Origin: an uncultured Eubacteriales bacterium
GTDB lineage: Bacteria; Bacillota; Clostridia; Lachnospirales; Anaerotignaceae
NCBI GenBank assembly: GCA_934552695.1
Contig: CAKTER010000004.1
Span: 1-27,442, forward strand
DNA length: 27,442 nucleotides
Direction of reading: 5' to 3'
Below, piece by piece: positions 2,724 to 21,746 of this stretch. The notes under the pieces were generated by a model. That model was not told the origin of the DNA. It was given only the letters and a program-made list of their open reading frames with translations, and did no database searches. Every line of letters begins with the position of its first letter. Positions within the stretch are counted from its first letter, which is position 1. Position numbers and translations under genes: made by a program.

Positions 2724-4037
2724 TTAGCCCTGCTCAACAATCCCGTCGATGCGGATGTCGAAGTAGGGGGCGCTGCGGAAGGTGGATTCCTGGAAAGCGC
2801 CGTCCACGATGCACTCGTAATCCTGGCCTTCGTACAGAACGGCGGAATAGTCGGAGTTCATGGTGGAGGAGTTGAAGGTGTAGGTGGTGATGTGCTCGCC
2901 GTTTACGGTGAACTTTTCGGTGTCGAAAATCTTTAAGGAACCGTCCTTAATGGCGGCTTCCACTTCGGCTACCTTTTCGGCGGTGCCGGCAGCGCAGGAC
3001 TCGCCAAGCTCGGAAATCATGTTAGCCCCGGCGGTGTAGCCCTCGGACCAGTCTACGGGGATTTCGTCAAACTTGCCTTCCTTGGCCAGGCCAAAGGCGT
3101 AGGTGTAGTAAGCGCCCCAGTTGTTCTGAGCAGAGGTCAGGATGGCGGTAGGAGCCACGGAACGCATATCGATGTTGTAGCCAACATAGTAGCATACGGC
3201 GCCGTTCTTGACAGCGGCTTCGATGGCGGAGGGGCCGCCGGTGGAGTCGGCGTGCTGGCTGATGATGCAGCAGCCCTGAGCCAGCAGAGCCTCGGCAGCC
3301 TGCTGCTCGGCGGTGGCGTTAGCCCAGGAGTTGGTGTAGGCCACGCTCATGGATACGTTTTCGACGATGGACTTAATGCCCAGATAGAAGGCGGTGTAGC
3401 CGGAAACCACCTCGGCATAGGGATAGGCGCCAACGTAACCAATCTTGATGGTGCCGTCCTCGTTGTAGTTGGCATCGGTCAAAACGCCTTCCTCAACCAT
3501 TTCGGCCAGCTTCATACCGGCAACCACGCCGGATACATAGCGGGACTCGTAGGTGTGGTTAAAGAAGTTGCGGGTGTTGTCGCAGTTGTCTACGGCAGCG
3601 GTGTCGCCGGTGGCAATCAGGAAGGTCACGTCGGGATATTCCTCGGCGGCCTGGGTCATGTAGGACTGATGACCGTAGGAGTCAGAAATAATCAGGTTGC
3701 AGCCGTTCTCGGCCAGGTCGGAAGCGGCGTCGTAGCAGCTGGCGTCTTCGGGGTTGTTGTACTTCCAAATCACCTGGGTGTCGTCGTTGTAATCGATACC
3801 CAGAGATTCGCAGGCGGCCTGGATGCCTTCCATATGAGCATAGTCATAACCGATGGATTCGTCGTGCAGCAGAACCACGCCAATCTTCAGAGGCGAGGCC
3901 TCGCCCTCGTCTTCGCCGTCCCCGTCCTGTTCGGTGTTGGCGGCATTGCCGTTGGAATCCTCTTTGGTGTCGCTTCCGCAGGCGCAAAGGCCCAGACCCA
4001 TGACGGCTGCCAGGGCAAGTGCAAGAAACTTCTTCAT
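2724..4037 (-). CDS. BMP-family (PnrA-like) substrate-binding lipoprotein of a nucleoside/purine ABC importer
   Basis: Extracellular, membrane-anchored solute-binding protein. It has 437 residues. The N-terminus MKKFLALALAAVMGLGLCAC is a lipoprotein signal with the lipid-modified cysteine most likely at position 20, followed by a low-complexity acidic/Asn linker to about residue 48. The rest matches the basic membrane protein/PnrA family: a KIGVVLLHDE start strand, ISDSYGHQS, and NITY-like periplasmic-binding-protein segments such as YVGAYPYAEVVSGY near 204-217. These proteins bind purine nucleosides in characterised members. The start ATG at 4037 has AGGAGG 9 bases upstream. It sits 73 bases downstream of xpt and upstream of the ATPase and permease genes, so the four genes are likely co-regulated by the guanine riboswitch. 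Exact ligand unknown. Confidence 0.92.
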   Translation of the reverse strand: MKKFLALALAAVMGLGLCACGSDTKEDSNGNAANTEQDGDGEDEGEASPLKIGVVLLHDESIGYDYAHMEGIQAACESLGIDYNDDTQVIWKYNNPEDASCYDAASDLAENGCNLIISDSYGHQSYMTQAAEEYPDVTFLIATGDTAAVDNCDNTRNFFNHTYESRYVSGVVAGMKLAEMVEEGVLTDANYNEDGTIKIGYVGAYPYAEVVSGYTAFYLGIKSIVENVSMSVAYTNSWANATAEQQAAEALLAQGCCIISQHADSTGGPSAIEAAVKNGAVCYYVGYNIDMRSVAPTAILTSAQNNWGAYYTYAFGLAKEGKFDEIPVDWSEGYTAGANMISELGESCAAGTAEKVAEVEAAIKDGSLKIFDTEKFTVNGEHITTYTFNSSTMNSDYSAVLYEGQDYECIVDGAFQESTFRSAPYFDIRIDGIVEQG

Positions 4038-4110: not shown

Positions 4111-4686
4111 TTATTGGGGCCGGTAGGTAATCGTGGTATCGTCCATGGCATCGATGATAGCTAACGATTCCACCCGGATGCCTTTGGCCCGCAGGGCGTC
4201 GCCTCCGCCCTGGAAGCCCTTTTCGATGGCGGCGGATACCCCCGCCAGGCTGGCCCCTGCTTCGTCAATGATTTGGATAAGGCCGCCCACGGCGTTGCCC
4301 AAAGCCAAAAAGTCATCCACAATCAAAACCCGGTCGGAGGCCGACAGATAATCCCGGCTCATCATAATGGTGTAAGTTTTTTTGTGGGTAAACGAAAACA
4401 CCTCGGCACTGTATAAATCCCCGGTCAGGTTGGCGGACTGGTGTTTTTTGGCAAACACCATGGGGACGTTGAGGGCGGCGGCGGCGGCGACCGCCAAAGG
4501 AATGCCGCTGGCCTCTACGGTGAGTACCCGGGTTACGCCTTCGTTCTGGAACAGGCGGGCAATCTCCCGGCCCATTTCCATTAAAAACGCTACGTCAATC
4601 TGCTGGTTTAAAAACCGGCCGACCTTTACAATATTGCCGGGCAAAATCTCGCCTTCCCGCAGGATCTTTTCTTCCAGTGCCTTCAT
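4111..4686 (-). CDS. xpt: Xanthine phosphoribosyltransferase
   Basis: Cytoplasmic purine salvage enzyme that converts xanthine plus PRPP to XMP. It has 191 residues, the usual length for Xpt. The N-terminus MKALEEKILREGEILPGNIV and FLNQQIDVAF are typical. The PRPP-binding loop is VLIVDDFLALGNA at 120-132, and the phosphate/substrate segment VEASGIPLAVAAA is at 58-70. The start is the ATG at 4686, with GGAGG 6 bases upstream. The open frame continues further upstream, but that part is riboswitch and terminator and has no ribosome binding site. Expression is predicted to fall when guanine is abundant. The gene heads a unit with a nucleoside-type ABC importer. A hypoxanthine/guanine-type activity is the less likely alternative. 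Confidence 0.95.
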   Translation of the reverse strand: MKALEEKILREGEILPGNIVKVGRFLNQQIDVAFLMEMGREIARLFQNEGVTRVLTVEASGIPLAVAAAAALNVPMVFAKKHQSANLTGDLYSAEVFSFTHKKTYTIMMSRDYLSASDRVLIVDDFLALGNAVGGLIQIIDEAGASLAGVSAAIEKGFQGGGDALRAKGIRVESLAIIDAMDDTTITYRPQ

Positions 4687-4697
4687 ACTGCGCCTCC

Positions 4698-4726
4698 AAA
4701 AAAAGAACAGACTTAAAAAAGTCTGT
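4698..4726 (-). terminator. Riboswitch terminator before xpt
   Basis: On the minus strand ACAGACTT (4719-4726) and AAGTCTGT (4707-4714) form a perfect 8-base-pair stem with a TTTT loop, followed by TCTTTTTTT. The run of T ends directly at the GGAGG of xpt. It lies about 50 bases past the guanine aptamer, the usual place for the expression platform. I could not identify a convincing antiterminator. A second ATTGGT (4729-4734), the same as the 3' strand of aptamer helix P1, lies just upstream of the stem. Confidence 0.85.
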
Positions 4727-4774
4727 CCACCAATAAAAACCGGATAGCCGCCCCAAACAAAAAAAGCAACGCAT

Positions 4775-4840
4775 ACCAATAGTCGCAGCTGAGGCGCTGC
4801 GGTAGAAACGTTTGGGCCATCCATCCAAATTTATATTGGC
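4775..4840 (-). promoter_or_regulatory. Purine (guanine-type) riboswitch aptamer
   Basis: The minus strand matches the purine riboswitch core. P1 is formed by GCCAAT and ATTGGT. P2 is TTTGG/CCAAA with GG-containing loop, then the junction CGTTTCTACC, then P3 GCAGC/GCTGC with loop GCCTCA, whose CC can kiss the loop of P2, then the junction GACTAT. The C in GACTAT is the base that pairs with the ligand, so guanine (or hypoxanthine/xanthine) rather than adenine is expected. It precedes xpt, the classic target, with a terminator in between, predicting repression by guanine. Confidence 0.93.
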
Positions 4841-4864
4841 GATATTCGATTTGCTTATGGCTTC

Positions 4865-10513: not shown

Positions 10514-11398
10514 GTGAATACTTCGCTGGATTGGTACCGGATTTTTTGCACGGTGGTGCGTACCGGCAACATGACTGCCGCCGCCCGGGAGCTTTATATC
10601 TCCCAGCCGGCGGTCTCCATGGCCATGCGCCAGCTGGAGGAGGCCCTGGGGGGGCGGCTTTTGCTGCGGACCACCAAGGGCGTACAGCCTACGGCCGAGG
10701 GCCGGGTGCTATATGAATATGTAAAGCAGGCCATGGAGCTGGTGACCACGGCCGAAGAAAAGGTGGCGGCTATGCAGCAGCTGGCCGAGGGCAAGCTTTC
10801 CATTGGGGCCAGCGACACGGTAATCTCCCGGTTGCTGCTGCCCTTTTTGGAAACCTTCCACGAGCAGTATCCTCAGGTCAATATCCGGGTGACCAACAAA
10901 ACCACCGACGAATGCCTGCGGCTGCTGCAAAGCGGGGCCGTGGATTTGTGCTTTATCAACCTGCCGGTGGCGGAAACGTCCCGGCTGGAGATTACCCCGT
11001 TTTTTACCGTTCACGACTGCCTGATTGCCGGGCCGAAATACGCCCATTTGGCCCAAACGGGACTCAGCTGGCAGGCCCTGGGGGAGTATCCTCTATTATT
11101 GCTGGAGCCCTTAAGCAATACCCGGCGGAATTTGGATGCGTTTGCCCTGCAAAACGGGGTGGCGCTGGCGCCGGAGTTCCAGCTGGGCTCCTACGACCTG
11201 CTGTTGGAGTTTGCCCGGATTGGCTTGGGGCTAACCTTTGCCGTGCGGGAGTTTACGGACTTTATGGCCGAGGGGCTGGTGGAAATCCCCCTGACCCCGC
11301 CGGTGCCGGAGCGGCAGATTGGGCTGGTGACCCTGAAAGGGCTGGAGCTGTCCCGGGCGGCTCAAACTTTTGTGAACGAGGTGCAAAAAGGGGCTTGA
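10514..11398 (+). CDS. LysR-family transcriptional regulator
   Basis: DNA-binding regulator with 294 residues, typical of the family. The N-terminal winged helix-turn-helix is obvious: GNMTAAARELYISQPAVSMA (18-37), followed by the linker helix to about residue 85 and a periplasmic-binding-like effector domain (about 90-290). The start is the GTG at 10514, with a GGGGGG stretch as ribosome site; upstream in-frame ATGs would add a low-complexity Arg/Pro/Gly extension lying in the intergenic region. No divergent partner gene is present, so the target cannot be read from context. The gap before it (10371-10513) is GC-rich, and I see no clear promoter there. The promoter of the downstream arsR begins inside its last codons. 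Confidence 0.9.
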   Translation: MNTSLDWYRIFCTVVRTGNMTAAARELYISQPAVSMAMRQLEEALGGRLLLRTTKGVQPTAEGRVLYEYVKQAMELVTTAEEKVAAMQQLAEGKLSIGASDTVISRLLLPFLETFHEQYPQVNIRVTNKTTDECLRLLQSGAVDLCFINLPVAETSRLEITPFFTVHDCLIAGPKYAHLAQTGLSWQALGEYPLLLLEPLSNTRRNLDAFALQNGVALAPEFQLGSYDLLLEFARIGLGLTFAVREFTDFMAEGLVEIPLTPPVPERQIGLVTLKGLELSRAAQTFVNEVQKGA

Positions 11399-11423
11399 CA
11401 AACCCAGGCCCTTTTTGTATACT
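11395..11423 (+). promoter_or_regulatory. arsR promoter
   Basis: TTGACA (11395-11400) and TATACT (11418-11423) with a 17-base spacer, a near-consensus sigma-A promoter. Its -35 box overlaps the stop codon of the LysR gene. The expected start point, about 11430, coincides with the ArsR-type operator. Confidence 0.88.
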
Positions 11424-11429
11424 ACAAAC

Positions 11430-11446
11430 ATGAATGGTTGTTCAAA
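11430..11446 (+). promoter_or_regulatory. ArsR/SmtB-type operator 1 (autoregulation)
   Basis: ATGAATGGTTGTTCAAA contains the imperfect dyad TGAAT/GTTCA with a 4-base centre, resembling SmtB/CzrA half-sites (TGAA..TTCA). It covers the predicted transcription start of arsR. A copy identical at 12 of 15 positions lies at 11903-11917. Confidence 0.65.
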
Positions 11447-11484
11447 CGATAATGCGTTTTCCGAAGGAGCAAAGGAGGCGGGAG

Positions 11485-11805
11485 ATGCTGTCGGACGAAT
11501 TTATTTTTGATGTGGCCGACTTTTTTAAGGTGTTTGGCGATGCTACCCGGATACGCATCCTGATTTTGCTGTCCCGGCAGGATTTGTGCGTGGGGGAATT
11601 GGCCGAGGCGTTAAATATGACCCAGTCGGCGGTGAGCCACCAGCTGCGGGTGCTGCGGCAGAACGATTTGGTCAAAACCCGGAAGGATGGCAAAAACGTG
11701 TGCTATTCGCTGGACGACGACCATGTAAAAATGGTGCTGGAGCAGGGCATGAACCACATCCGCCACAAAAAGCACTACGAAGCGGAGGGGGAGGGAATCC
11801 TCTGA
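11485..11805 (+). CDS. ArsR/SmtB-family metal-responsive repressor (CzrA-like zinc site)
   Basis: Dimeric winged-helix repressor that leaves DNA when it binds metal. It has 106 residues from the ATG at 11485, which has GGAGG 6 bases upstream. An upstream in-frame ATG at 11434 lies in the operator and lacks a ribosome site. The recognition helix is NMTQSAVSHQLRVLRQ (44-59). The alpha-5 metal ligands match S. aureus CzrA and SmtB with identical spacing: D78-x-H80, then H91 and H94 in the segment DDHVKMVLEQGMNHIRH. C35 in DLCVGEL is a lone cysteine at the alpha-3 position used by arsenic and cadmium sensors. I therefore predict a Zn(II)/Co(II) sensor. Context agrees: operators on both sides and a Zn/Cd-type P-ATPase gene next. 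Confidence 0.92.
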   Translation: MLSDEFIFDVADFFKVFGDATRIRILILLSRQDLCVGELAEALNMTQSAVSHQLRVLRQNDLVKTRKDGKNVCYSLDDDHVKMVLEQGMNHIRHKKHYEAEGEGIL

Positions 11806-11902
11806 CCCGAACCGTTTTAAAAGGCCGGGCCATCTGCTCAAGGAAGGGCGGGAGCCGGGGCAAAAAGGGAAGAAGCCGCTTGGTTTTTTCTTTCCTCAAT
11901 GC

Positions 11903-11917
11903 ATGAATAGTTAATCA
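11903..11917 (+). promoter_or_regulatory. ArsR/SmtB-type operator 2, before the P-type ATPase
   Basis: ATGAATAGTTAATCA is identical to operator 1 at 12 of 15 positions and sits 20 bases before the ATPase start. Its presence suggests direct control of the ATPase, perhaps with a weak promoter of its own (TTGGTT at 11880-11885 is a poor -35 candidate) besides read-through from arsR. Confidence 0.6.
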
Positions 11918-11936
11918 CATGAACAGGGGTGAAATG

Positions 11937-13884
11937 ATGATAAAGACCAGAGAAAATGAGAAAAAGCGGGCCGGGAACACCTGTGGGTGTGGCGGCGGGT
12001 GCGGCCACGAACATCACCACCATCATTGCGACGACGATGGCGGCTGCGGCTGCGGCCACGACCACGGCATCCCCCTCCACTGTGGGTGCGGCTGCGAGGA
12101 CGAGGAAGAAGAAGGCGACCGCAAAACCAGGATCCTCCGCTTTATTGTGGGCGGCGGCCTGTTTGCCCTGGGGATGATTGTCAAATTCCCGGTGCTTTTG
12201 TATGCGGCCTACGCCGTGTTTGGCTACGATGTGCTGTGGCGGGCTGTGAAAAATATTTCCCGGGGGAAGGTGTTTGACGAGAACTTTCTGATGGCGTTGG
12301 CCACCATTGGCGCCTTGGCGCTGGGGGACACCCCCGAGGCCGTGTTTGTAATGGCCTTTTACCAGCTGGGGGAATTTTTTCAGGATTTGGCGGTGGACAA
12401 AAGCAAAAGCTCCATCGAAAGCCTGATGGCCATTCGCCCCGACTTTGCCCGGCGACTCGATGGGACAGAGGTGGCCCCGGAAGAAATTGCCTTGGGAGAG
12501 AGCTTTGTGGTGCGGCCCGGCGAGCGTATCCCGCTGGACGGCCTGGTGCTGGACGGTGCGGCCTGGCTGGATACGGCGGCGGTTACCGGGGAGTCGGTTC
12601 CCCGGCAGGTGCATCCCGGGGATGAGGTGGTCAGCGGGTGTGTGGCCACCGACGGCAGCCTGACTCTGAAGGCTTTGCGGCCCTTTGGGGAAAGCACGGT
12701 GATGCGAAATTTAAAAATGACCCAGGACGCTTCGGAGCACAAGTCCCGGGCGGAACGGTTTATTACCCGGTTTGCCCGGGTCTATACCCCGGCGGTGGTG
12801 ATGGGGGCGGTGGCCCTGGCCCTCATCCCCAGCCTCATTACCGGGAACCCCGACCTGTGGGTGGGCCGGGCCCTCACGTTTTTGGTTATTTCCTGTCCCT
12901 GCGCCTTGGTGCTTTCGGTGCCCCTAAGCGTGTTTTCGGGCATTGGCGAGGCCTCTCGCAGCGGGGTTCTGGTTAAGAGCGGGCAGGATTTGGAGGCTTT
13001 GCAGGAAATAGAAATTTTGGCGATGGATAAAACCGGCACGCTGACCGAGGGCGTGTTTGGCGTGCGGGAGGTCGTGGCGGCGGACGGAGGGGACAAAGAC
13101 CGGGTGCTTCGGTTGGCGGCCCGGGCCGAGTCCGGCTCCAACCATCCCATTGCCCGGGCCCTGTGGGCCGCCGGGGGCCGGCCCGACCCGGAACCCGGAA
13201 TCCGGGAGATTTCCGGCCGGGGCGTAGAGGTTATGCTGGACGGCAAGCGGGTGCTGGCCGGGAACCGGCGGCTGCTGGCGGAAAATAACATTGCCGTAAC
13301 CACAGAGGAGCGGCCCGGGACACAGGTGAACGTAGCCGAGGATGGGGTGTATGTGGGCACGGTGTATTTGGAGGATACCATCCGCCGGGATGTGCCCGAG
13401 GCATTGGCACTGCTGCGGAAGTGCGGCGTGAAGCGGTTTGTCATGCTTTCCGGTGACGCCCAGGCTACGGCCGACCGGGTGGCCCAAAGCCTGGGGATTG
13501 ACGAGGCCTTTGGCGAGCTGCTGCCTCAGGATAAGGCAGAGCGCATTCGGGAGCTGAAGCAGTCCGGGCAAACGGTGGCCTATGCCGGAGACGGCATCAA
13601 CGACGCCCCCTCGCTGGCGTTGGCCGATGTGGGCGTGGCGATGGGCGGCGTGGGCAGCGACGCCGCTATGGATGCAGGATGACCTGCGGTCGCTGGCAAC
13701 GGGGATGCAGATTGCCCGGGGCACCAACCGGATTGTGAAGCAGAACGTTGTGTTTGCATTGGTGATCAAAGCCCTGACCATGGTGCTGGGGGCTATGGGC
13801 CTGGTGGGCCTGTGGGCGGCGTCCTTTGCCGACGTAGGCGTGGCGCTGTTGGCCATTTTGAACGCCATGCGGAAAAAGCACTAA
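11937..13884 (+). pseudogene. Heavy-metal P-type ATPase (P1B-2, Zn/Cd/Pb type), frameshifted near the 3' end
   Basis: Would export Zn(II), Cd(II) or Pb(II) across the membrane. The ATG at 11937 follows AGGGGTGA (11934 and 11919 are alternatives). Residues 16-53 are a Cys/His-rich metal tail instead of the usual ferredoxin-like domain. The motifs are TGES (218-221), CPC (320-322), DKTGT (364-368), the HP pair (403-404) and GDGINDAP (557-564). The reading frame stops at 13682, right after GSDAAMDAG. The missing C-terminus continues in another frame from about 13672 (MQDDLRSL) to 13884. It includes the transmembrane Lys and Asp spaced by 21 residues, as K693 and D714 of E. coli ZntA. An intact gene would need about 20 more bases. 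As read, the product lacks the last two helices and should not transport. Confidence 0.85.
13663..13682 (+). other. Frame-break junction in the P-type ATPase gene
   Basis: At the conserved GSDAA-(8 residues)-M stretch only 4 bases (ATGG) separate the GCT alanine codon from the ATG that resumes homology, where 24 would be expected. The site contains GATGC (13671-13675). A 20-base deletion between two GATGC copies would produce exactly this sequence from an ancestor reading AAMDAADVVLMQDD. That reconstruction is inferred. Confidence 0.65.
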
Positions 13885-13923
13885 CGGCCGGGTAAAATCG
13901 GCAAATACAATAGGAAGAAACGG

Positions 13924-13950
13924 AAAAGGTCGGGTCAAACCGGCCTTTTT
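13924..13950 (+). terminator. Terminator after the P-type ATPase
   Basis: AAAAGGTCGG (13924-13933) pairs with CCGGCCTTTT (13940-13949) across a 6-base loop, one G-T pair, ending in five T. It lies 40 bases past the last codon of the frameshifted tail, which supports the tail as part of the original gene. Confidence 0.88.
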
Positions 13951-13978
13951 CGGACTTTTTTGCGGCGAAAAAAAGGAA

Positions 13979-14007
13979 TTGGGGAACAAACGGAGAAAAA
14001 GTATACA
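13979..14007 (+). promoter_or_regulatory. Possible promoter for dgt-dnaG-rpoD
   Basis: TTGGGG (13979-13984) and TATACA (14002-14007), spacer 17. The -10 is good and the -35 partial. It follows the ATPase terminator and would give a leader of about 90 bases. Confidence 0.5.
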
Positions 14008-14023
14008 GGTGGAAATTTATATT

Positions 14024-14075
14024 CCGTCTGCCAAAAAGCAAGGCGGACGGAAAAGTGCCGCCCCCGCAAGGGGGC
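14024..14075 (+). other. Two-hairpin leader upstream of dgt
   Basis: CCGTCTGCC (14024-14032) pairs with GGCGGACGG (14042-14050), 9 base pairs with one G-T, loop of 9. It is followed by a CCCCC-GCAA-GGGGG hairpin (14060-14075) with a GNRA tetraloop. Neither is followed by a T run, so they are not terminators. They could stabilise or regulate the mRNA. I do not recognise a known riboswitch class. Confidence 0.5.
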
Positions 14076-14101
14076 TGACGACGGAGAAGGGAGGAGAAGC
14101 C

Positions 14102-15109
14102 ATGGAGCTGCGGAAAGAGCTGGAGGAACGGGAGGAACAAGAGCTTTCGCCTCTGGCCAGCAAAAGCGCCCACAACCGGGGCCGGGAACGGTACGAGGAG
14201 CCCTGCGACATCCGCACGGACTTCCAGCGGGACCGGGATCGGATTATCCATTGCAAGGCATTCCGGCGGCTGAAGCACAAAACCCAGGTGTTTATCTCTC
14301 CCGAAGGCGATCATTACCGTACCCGGCTGACCCACACGCTGGAGGTGGCCCAGATTGCCCGGACCATTGCCCGGGCCCTGCGGCTAAACGAGGATTTGAC
14401 CGAGGCCATTGCCTTGGGCCACGATTTGGGGCATACCCCCTTTGGCCACGCCGGGGAGGCGGTGCTTGACAAGCTGTACGCCCCGGGGTTTGAGCATTGC
14501 CTGCAAAGCCTACGGGTGGTGGAGCGGCTGGAAAAGGACGGGGCGGGGCTAAACCTGACCTGGGAGGTGCGGGACGGCATCCGTAACCATCGTACCAGCG
14601 GCAAGCCCGGCACCCTGGAGGGCAAGGTGGTACAGCTTTCCGATAAAATCGCCTACATCAATCACGATTTGGATGACGCTGTGCGGGCGGGACTCATCCA
14701 AAAGGAAAGCATCCCCCGGGAGCTGGTCGCCGTGGTGGGGGAAAACTCCAGCCAGCGCATTAACACCATGATCCGGGATACGTTAGGGTTTTCCGACGCC
14801 GCCGGGGATATTGGGATGAGCCCGGAGATGCGGGCGGCCATGACGGGGTTGCGGCAATTTTTGTTCCGCAACGTGTACCACAGCGATTGGCGCAGGGATT
14901 CCGATAAAAAAGTGGAGTATGTGGTCAGCGGGCTTTACCGGCATGTGCTGGCGCATCCGGAGGAAATGCCTCGGGAGTTTGCGCTGCTGCTGGCCCGGGG
15001 AGAACCGGTAGACCGGGTGACGGTGGACTACATTGCCTGCATGACCGACCGGTTTGCCCTGAAAAAATATACCGAGTGGTTTATTCCCTCCTCTTGGGAG
15101 GTGGAGTGA
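14102..15109 (+). CDS. dgt: dGTP triphosphohydrolase-like HD protein (dGTPase)
   Basis: Cytoplasmic HD-superfamily enzyme expected to hydrolyse dNTPs (dGTP to deoxyguanosine and triphosphate in characterised members). It has 335 residues, matching the short dGTPase-like proteins of Firmicutes. It shows HCKAFRRLKHKTQVF (50-64), RTRLTHTLEV (73-82) with H78, the H107-D108 pair in ALGHDLGHTPFGH (104-116), and D181 in QLSDKIAYINHD. The start at 14102 has GGAGG about 9 bases upstream; the frame is open further upstream, but that is leader sequence. Its stop overlaps the dnaG start by one base (TGATG), and rpoD follows, so the three form one operon, a known order in Clostridia. Confidence 0.92.
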   Translation: MELRKELEEREEQELSPLASKSAHNRGRERYEEPCDIRTDFQRDRDRIIHCKAFRRLKHKTQVFISPEGDHYRTRLTHTLEVAQIARTIARALRLNEDLTEAIALGHDLGHTPFGHAGEAVLDKLYAPGFEHCLQSLRVVERLEKDGAGLNLTWEVRDGIRNHRTSGKPGTLEGKVVQLSDKIAYINHDLDDAVRAGLIQKESIPRELVAVVGENSSQRINTMIRDTLGFSDAAGDIGMSPEMRAAMTGLRQFLFRNVYHSDWRRDSDKKVEYVVSGLYRHVLAHPEEMPREFALLLARGEPVDRVTVDYIACMTDRFALKKYTEWFIPSSWEVE

Positions 15110-16890
15110 TGCCCCGGTATCCTCAGGAATTGGTGGAAGAGGTACGGGTGGCCACCGACATTGTGGATCTCATCGGTTCCTATTTGCCTTTAAAGCAAAA
15201 GGGCAACAACTACTGGGGCCTCTGCCCGTTTCATCACGAAAAAACGGCCTCGTTTTCCGTCAGCCCCGACAAGCAGCTGTATTATTGCTTTGGCTGCGGC
15301 GCCAGCGGCAATGCGTACAGCTTTGTGATGCAGATGGATAACGTGGACTTCCCCGAGGCGGTACGGAAGCTGGCAGAGCGGGCACACATTCCGCTGCCGG
15401 AGGAGGCCGAGACCCCGGCGGCCCAAGCGGCCCGGCAGCTACGGGAGCGGCTGCTTGCCATGCACAGCGCGGCGGGCCGGTTTTATTACGAATGCTTGCA
15501 TGGCCCGGAGGGCCGGGAGGCCCTGGAGTATTTGCAAAAACGGCAAATTTCCCCGGCGCTGGCCCGGAAGTTTGGGCTGGGGTACGCCCCGGGCCGGGAA
15601 CGGCTGCTCCGGTACTTAACGGAGCAGGGGTATACGCAGACGGAGCTGGAAAAAAGCGGGCTGGTTTTGCCGGGCCGGGAGGGCGGCCCGCTGCGGGATC
15701 GGTTTTTTAACCGGCTGATGTTTCCTATTTTTGACGGCAGCGGCCGGTGCATCGGCTTTGGCGGCCGGGTGCTGGGAAAGGGCGAGCCCAAGTACCTAAA
15801 CTCTCCCGAGACCGAGCTGTTTAACAAAAGCAAAAACCTGTATGGCCTGCATTTTGCCAAAAAGACCCGCAGCCGGGAGCTCATCCTGGTAGAAGGGTAC
15901 ATGGATTTGCTGGCCATTGTGCAGGCCGGGTTCCCCAATGTGGTAGCCGGCTTGGGTACCGCCCTGAACGGGGAGCATGTCAAGGTGCTGCAAAAGGTGT
16001 GCGATGCCGTGATTTTGCTGTATGACAGCGACGAGGCGGGGCAAAACGCCGCCCGGCGGGCCATTCCCCTGCTGCTGGCAGGCGGGCTTTCGGTGCGGGT
16101 GGCCGCCGTGCCCGACGGGAAGGATCCCGACGAGTTTATTAAGGCCCACGGCCCTGCTGCATTTGCCCGGGTCATTGCCAACGCCCAAAGCCACACGGCC
16201 TTTGCTATTTCGTGTATTCGCAAAAACTACAATTTGGAAAACCCGGAGCATATCACGGCCTTTGCTACCGAGGTTTCCAAGCTGCTTTCGGAGCTGCCCA
16301 ACCCCATCGAGGCAGAGGTATACGCCCGGGAGGTAGCCCAGGAGACCGGCATTTCCGCCGAGACCCTGCTGGGGCAGGTGAAGCGCCTGCGGGACCGGGA
16401 GGAGGAGGCCTTTGCCCAAAAGGCCGAAAAGGAACGGCTGCGGCGGTACGACCGGGTGGAAAAGACCGGGACGGAGGCTGTGCCCAAGGGGGTTTTAGCG
16501 GCCCAAAAGGATTTGCTGGCCCGGTGCGCCGCACACCCGGAGTTGTTCCGGCGGGTGCTGGAATACCTTGGCCCGGAGGACTTTTTGACCCCGGCCCTGC
16601 GCCGGGTGGCAGAGCTTATGGTGGATTGCCTGAAGCAGGATTTGAGTATTTTGCCGGCGGAGCTGGTGAACCATTTTTCAGATTTGGACGAACAAAAGCT
16701 GGTTTCGGGCCTGTTTGCCCAGCGGCTCCAACCGCTGGACACCGAAGCGCAAAAAAAAGCCCTCAAGGAGGAAATTTTGCTGATTAAACGGGCCAAACTG
16801 GAAAAGGATATGGAAACGGCAGACATTTTGGAGTTAAAAGCGTTATTGGAACAGAGGAAAGAATGGGATCGGAAGGAAATCGACCTGTAA
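15109..16890 (+). CDS. dnaG: DNA primase
   Basis: Makes RNA primers at the replication fork and interacts with the replicative helicase through its C-terminal part. It has 593 residues, a normal length. The CHC2-type zinc finger has C39, H42, C60 and C63 (CPFHHEK and [10 protein letters not shown]). The RNA polymerase domain holds the TOPRIM motifs LVEGYMD (260-266, Glu262) and LYDSDEAG (304-311, Asp306 and Asp308). The C-terminal helicase-interacting region follows about residue 430. The start ATG at 15109 shares a base with the dgt stop and has GGGAGGTG just upstream. Transcribed with dgt and rpoD. Confidence 0.97.
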
Positions 16891-21384: not shown

Positions 21385-21732
21385 GGCGAGTAAGCCAGAC
21401 GGCCGCACCGGCCCGCTTTTGCGGGGGTGAGGAAAGTCCGGGCTTCGCAGGGCAAGGACGCCGGTTAACGGCCGGTGGAGGCGACTCTAAGGAAAGTGCA
21501 ACAGAAATAAACCGCCTGCCTTGGGGCAGGTAAGGGTGGAAAGGTGCGGTAAGAGCGCACCGCTTTGCTGGTAACAGCAGAGGCTCTGTAAACCCCGTCC
21601 GAAGCAAGACCAAAGCGAGACAATGAGGGGCGGCCCGTCCCGTCTCCGGTAAGGTCGCGCGAGGGCGCCGGCAACGGCGCTCCAAGATAGATGGCCGTCG
21701 AATACAGAACCCGGCTTATAGACTTGCTCGCC
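21385..21732 (+). ncRNA. rnpB: RNase P RNA, bacterial class A
   Basis: Catalytic RNA that matures the 5' ends of tRNAs together with the RnpA protein. The ends pair over 10 bases as helix P1 (GGCGAGTAAG with CTTGCTCGCC). The universal cores are clear: GAGGAAAGTCCGGGCT (21428-21443), ACAGAAATA, the stretch AAAGGTGCGGTAAGAGCGCA, CTGGTAACAG, and AGATAGATGGCCGTC followed by ACAGAACCCGGCTTATAG near the 3' end. These resemble the E. coli-type class A layout rather than the class B form of Bacillus, which fits a clostridial origin. The length is about 348 bases. It is preceded by an extended -10 and followed by a terminator. Confidence 0.96.
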
Positions 21733-21746
21733 TTTATACAAACAAA

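Follow-up and report, generated by a model that had tools for sequence, protein, structure and literature searches.

A metal ATPase gene of the P1B-2 family, probably a recent pseudogene allele, with 20 bases missing near its 3' end

Introduction

The described systems closest to the gene studied here differ in how far they resemble it. In ZntA (PDB 4umv/4umw), a P1B-2 zinc ATPase, Asp714 contributes to the intramembrane zinc site, with Lys693 as its salt-bridge partner, as described in PMC6305203. In Brucella abortus 2308, BAB1_0523, a predicted zinc exporter annotated as a pseudogene, is broken by a 17-bp deletion near its 5' end, while the unbroken B. ovis gene is 98% identical (in the part of PMC10800456 that treats this locus). 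A different route to an early-ending product is described in E. coli copA, also a metal P-type ATPase gene, where the gene is intact and programmed frameshifting in its 5' part yields a 70-aa product, a putative chaperone (as outlined in PMC5009743).

Here we describe a P1B-2 ATPase gene in a stretch of 27,442 bases (59.5% GC), referred to below as the window. Like BAB1_0523, it combines a small deletion and a frameshift with a near-identical unbroken relative; the organism and the site of the deletion are different, and the two cases are likened by description, not by sequence. Breakage of a zinc exporter by a small deletion is, with this precedent in print, an ordinary kind of event. The window gene shares with copA an early-ending product, but it has bases missing near its 3' end. 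Whereas ZntA carries the transport Lys and Asp in its chain, in the window both residues are out of frame.

Results and Discussion

The gene belongs to what is, judged from its sequence, a short metal-resistance unit on the + strand (11395-13952), made up of a promoter-like site, operator-like sites, a repressor gene, the ATPase gene and a terminator-like hairpin. The sigma-70-like promoter (11395-11423) matches 11 of 12 consensus positions with a 17-nt spacer; it is a consensus match only, the one site found equalling the mean of 1.0 in shuffled sequence. Between it and the repressor start lies an operator-like palindrome, TGAA-N6-TTCA (11431-11444), and a related site, TGAA-N6-ATCA (11904-11917), stands immediately 5' of the ATPase start. 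Both resemble what we take to be ArsR/SmtB-type operators. The pattern occurs at three places in the window, with five matches when the strands are counted separately, where 0.63 would be expected, an expectation that flatters the result because the pattern was chosen after two of the sites had been seen. The third place, a TGAA-N6-TTCA palindrome at 16667-16680 inside dnaG, is probably due to chance.

The repressor gene (11485-11805) is open, and its product scores 100.8 bits against the ArsR/SmtB profile NF033788 (cut-off 55), covering profile positions 1-76 of 77. It contains a DxHx10HxxH sequence at 11716, presumably a metal ligand motif of the alpha-5 type. The two strands of 11300-14150 together hold eight terminator-like sites, against 4.5 expected from shuffles; the one with the most pairs is a hairpin followed by a T-run downstream of the ATPase gene (13921-13952). 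An intact repressor, its operators and a terminator after the broken gene had all been reported in a first-pass annotation made from the sequence, and each has a counterpart here, at least in operator-like and terminator-like form.

The main frame of the ATPase gene (11934-13682, + strand) encodes 587 aa if read from the ATG at 11919; the residues that it encodes from 11934 are those with which its closest relative, P0002, begins. It reads ...GVAMGGVGSDAAMDAG, with a TGA at 13680-13682 directly 3' of GSDAAMDAG. This truncated chain scores 410.6 bits against the P1B-2 (Zn/Cd) family profile TIGR01512 (cut-off 313.5) and holds these motifs of the family: TGE at residue 223, CPC at 326, DKTGT at 370 and GDGxND (GDG at 557). 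The C-terminus is encoded elsewhere. A second frame runs without a stop from 13555, where an upstream stop lies, to the TAA at 13882-13884, and encodes the last 70 ATPase residues from an ATG at 13672 (13672-13884, + strand), 8 bases before the main-frame stop and overlapping the stop region. These residues include the helices that we call TM7 and TM8, names taken from the ZntA literature and not from a prediction on this protein. Two further motifs, which a complete chain would carry in its last two helices, are found out of frame only, beyond the main-frame stop: N(x)7K at 13744-13770 and DxG(x)7N at 13831-13863. That the break is more than chance is seen from the 70 out-of-frame residues, every one of which agrees with the C-terminus of P0002, and from their 100-aa ORF, which matches NCBIfam TIGR01512 with an E value of 1.8e-17. 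We regard it as confirmed, and as correctly described by the first-pass annotation, which had placed the stop at 13682 within the GSDAA stretch and the C-terminal helices in another frame at 13672-13884.

P0002 is an unnamed metagenome protein from ENA (695 aa; six members on three contigs, the longest 53434 bases). It scored best of 7994 proteins, those sharing the most words with the query, and among the 120 best listed the second by score is only 59% identical. The window chain differs from P0002 at 11 of 580 aligned residues, and the two probably belong to the same species. The adjoining LysR protein has two differences from its nearest relative, P0135, in the 293 residues after the start. 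In their His/Cys-rich N-terminus (11934-12115) the window protein is 39 residues shorter than P0002, counted from the shared start; this low-complexity, metal-binding stretch thus varies in length.

Unlike the window gene, P0002 is unbroken at the junction and has Glu there instead of Asp. From GSDAA to the second Met it has eight codons (24 bases), compared at the protein level, whereas the window has 4 bases; 20 bases are therefore missing, at a junction (13668-13675, + strand) whose breakpoint is ambiguous by up to 2 bases. The earlier proposal that 4 bases stand in place of the usual 24 is thus borne out by a close relative that keeps all 24 and lacks the short form. The interruption of the conserved stretch after GSDAA is out of line with the wider family: over the nine residues at the break, all 98 aligned homologues are free of gaps. 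These homologues (88 from loci, some of the same genome, and 10 proteins) were picked as unbroken segments of more than 500 aa, so that broken ones were not eligible.

Two of the 11 differences fall at strongly conserved sites. One is the Asp at the junction; the other is Asn264 (codon 12708-12710, + strand; counted from the ATG at 11919), where 96 of the 98 homologues have Ile and the other two Val. The remaining nine lie at variable or sparsely aligned positions. The pattern would suit a gene that escaped selection not long ago, but Asn264 is a single radical change: it hints at relaxed selection and may be a second sign of decay, and it could also be a sequence error.

Beyond P0002, the relatives listed are more distant. 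Of 587 genome relatives of the ATPase, the 80 listed are 44-54% identical; a match is present in all 58 genomes of the family of G010, an uncultured Clostridia MAG, the best-scoring being 55% identical; and of 392 genomes sampled from the order, 23 have matches at the DNA level, the top two (75-76% identical) lying over the repressor gene. Among the matches listed in these three sets there is no near-identical, same-species copy, and a plasmid search gave no match. Housekeeping proteins point to a Clostridia-like bacterium whose genus did not turn up in these searches. Against 15 genomes, its RpoD scores highest with G010 (83% over residues 24-385) and next with Christensenella (79% over 42-385), and some shorter matches to other genomes reach 84%. 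Its DnaG finds a match in 55 of 58 genomes of the G010 family, at 44-52% identity over most of its length, except that three of the 55 are partial matches at 55-62%.

How widespread is the broken form? Of 15 candidate matches to the 70-residue fragment, 13 proteins reach an E value of 1e-10 or better. The window's own fragment is one of them (one member on one contig of 27442 bases, the length of the window); the 12 others are detached C-terminal pieces of 69-123 aa, 47-64% identical, and so none of them is a near-identical match. Eight retain the stretch that the window has lost. The other four start after it and come from contigs whose longest are only 606-1349 bases, and we therefore think it likely that contig edges explain them. 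The 587-aa copy does not appear as a cluster of its own among the best 120 of the 7994 scored proteins, and it may lie inside the P0002 cluster. The searches turned up the broken junction nowhere else, its exact sequence occurring zero times in viral contigs; a single contig thus represents the broken form.

The consequence for the pump can be read from the alignment of P0002 with ZntA (4umv; E value 3.7e-101), in which its Lys and Asp align with K693 and D714, numbers that are counted from the printed alignment. Since the main-frame chain is without both helices and without part of the conserved stretch after GSDAA, its product very likely loses transport. The suggestion that the Lys/Asp transport pair is gone from the main product is upheld, both motifs being encoded solely out of frame.

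We conclude that the gene is probably a recent pseudogene allele of a Zn/Cd-exporting P1B-2 ATPase, carrying a frame-destroying lesion that a close relative lacks. A single 20-base deletion at the end of the phosphorylation domain would have put the rest of the gene out of frame; among the near-identical relatives of the strain there is an intact gene. The deletion may have arisen by slippage or by an event of the end-joining type, using no more than 2 bases of microhomology. The loss would be recent, because no other lesion is seen in the C-terminal frame; the repressor gene remains. If this is real, it represents the strain-level loss of a Zn/Cd exporter while the metal-sensing repressor stays, as expected under low metal pressure.

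The mechanism first proposed for the deletion was recombination between two GATGC copies 20 bases apart, and it was coupled to the idea of a reversible variant. GATGC is indeed present at the junction (13671), but in a single copy, the next being 33 bases on at 13704, and its origin by deletion between two copies is unsupported. Such a deletion needs an ancestral Asp (GAT). P0002 has Glu. The same residue stands in 69 of the 70 motif matches (the remaining one has Ser, and none has Asp), which come singly from 70 of 88 fetched loci, some of them overlapping, and in 91 of the 98 aligned homologues (four Asp, two Asn, one Ser). We therefore reject this recombination as the likely mechanism; the four Asp homologues make an Asp-bearing ancestor possible but unlikely. 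With either Glu codon, the parent would have no more than two bases (GA) in common across the junction. The simplest view, and probably the right one, is therefore that the joining itself created GATGC, which leaves 2 bases of microhomology at most. The Asp is then also most simply a junction product, which makes the argument from the repeat circular. The same 5-mer recurs 20 bases on at 28 of 27417 window positions, so a true GATGC repeat would be notable; the evidence shows none. A longer repeat, GGATGCAG (13670-13677 and 13703-13710, 33 bases apart), was also considered and discarded, as the lost bases are 5' of both copies and not between them; it has three matches in the window against 0.98 expected, and its copy at 13670 lies on the junction. 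A switch driven by recombination between GATGC copies, for which the GATGC at the junction and the Asp in 4 of 98 homologues might speak, is very improbable. In addition to the Glu of P0002 and the single GATGC, no tandem repeat that would permit a return spans 13668-13675; a two-copy 21-base array ends earlier, at 13655. A spontaneous return to the longer form is unlikely, since the locus has no other copy of the lost bases and slippage cannot restore them. Of the first interpretation as a whole, then, the 20 missing bases, the lost Lys/Asp pair and the kept repressor stand, while the GATGC deletion is unsupported and the reversible switch unlikely. The case is a clean example of a short residual motif at a deletion junction that need not be a recombination repeat, since the close relative suggests that the parent had no first copy of the motif. 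An imperfect inverted repeat also flanks the junction (arms 13649-13661 and 13689-13701; 13 nt, 85% complementary), with the missing bases in its loop; it could perhaps have aided slippage. Judged by titles and the openings of abstracts, none of the papers that a search on microhomology deletions listed deals with bacterial genes.

The broken gene might instead be an artefact, with 20 bases lost in assembling mixed-strain reads and the organism's own gene intact. We consider this unlikely. In its favour, no further contig with the broken form is known, the window is probably a single metagenome contig, and the intact form is present in close relatives. Against it, a clean 20-base loss with no repeat across it is atypical as a read error, and Asn264 is a second unusual residue in the same gene. 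None of ten other window proteins examined shows a sign of a frameshift. Nine of them match NCBIfam families at an E value of 1e-20 or better, most covering nearly the whole of the best profile, although not all score above the curated cut-off; the tenth, ORF 2724-4037, has no match at that E value. No second broken gene was seen among the ten, which argues against a generally poor consensus. A search of the literature on assembly indels found nothing. It is far less probable that the gene still works, either as a split pump, in which the 587-aa chain would be joined by a 70-aa two-helix peptide started at ATG 13672, or through ribosomal frameshifting. The second ATG does overlap the first stop, the C-terminal frame is unchanged, and the database holds the 12 other detached C-terminal pieces of related pumps; productive frameshifting is moreover described in copA (in the account given in PMC5009743). 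However, about seven residues after GSDAA are gone either way, residues that none of the 98 homologues lacks, and we accordingly judge both programmed frameshifting and restart unlikely. Moreover, eight of the 12 detached pieces still hold the lost stretch and the other four are likely to reflect contig edges, and no Shine-Dalgarno-like sequence was seen by eye before 13672. A true split P-type ATPase is the most improbable form of this idea: translation would stop at 13682 and restart at the overlapping ATG 13672, giving a chain whose phosphorylation domain is shortened and a detached two-helix subunit that bears the transport Lys and Asp.

Elsewhere in the window, two structured RNAs were found. 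RNase P RNA class A (RF00010, 310.8 bits) lies at 21387-21734 on the + strand. A purine riboswitch (RF00167, 46.5 bits) lies at 4760-4858 on the - strand and overlaps the start of an ORF listed as 4111-4824; this ORF is, by eye, phosphoribosyltransferase-like, and its true start is probably further in.
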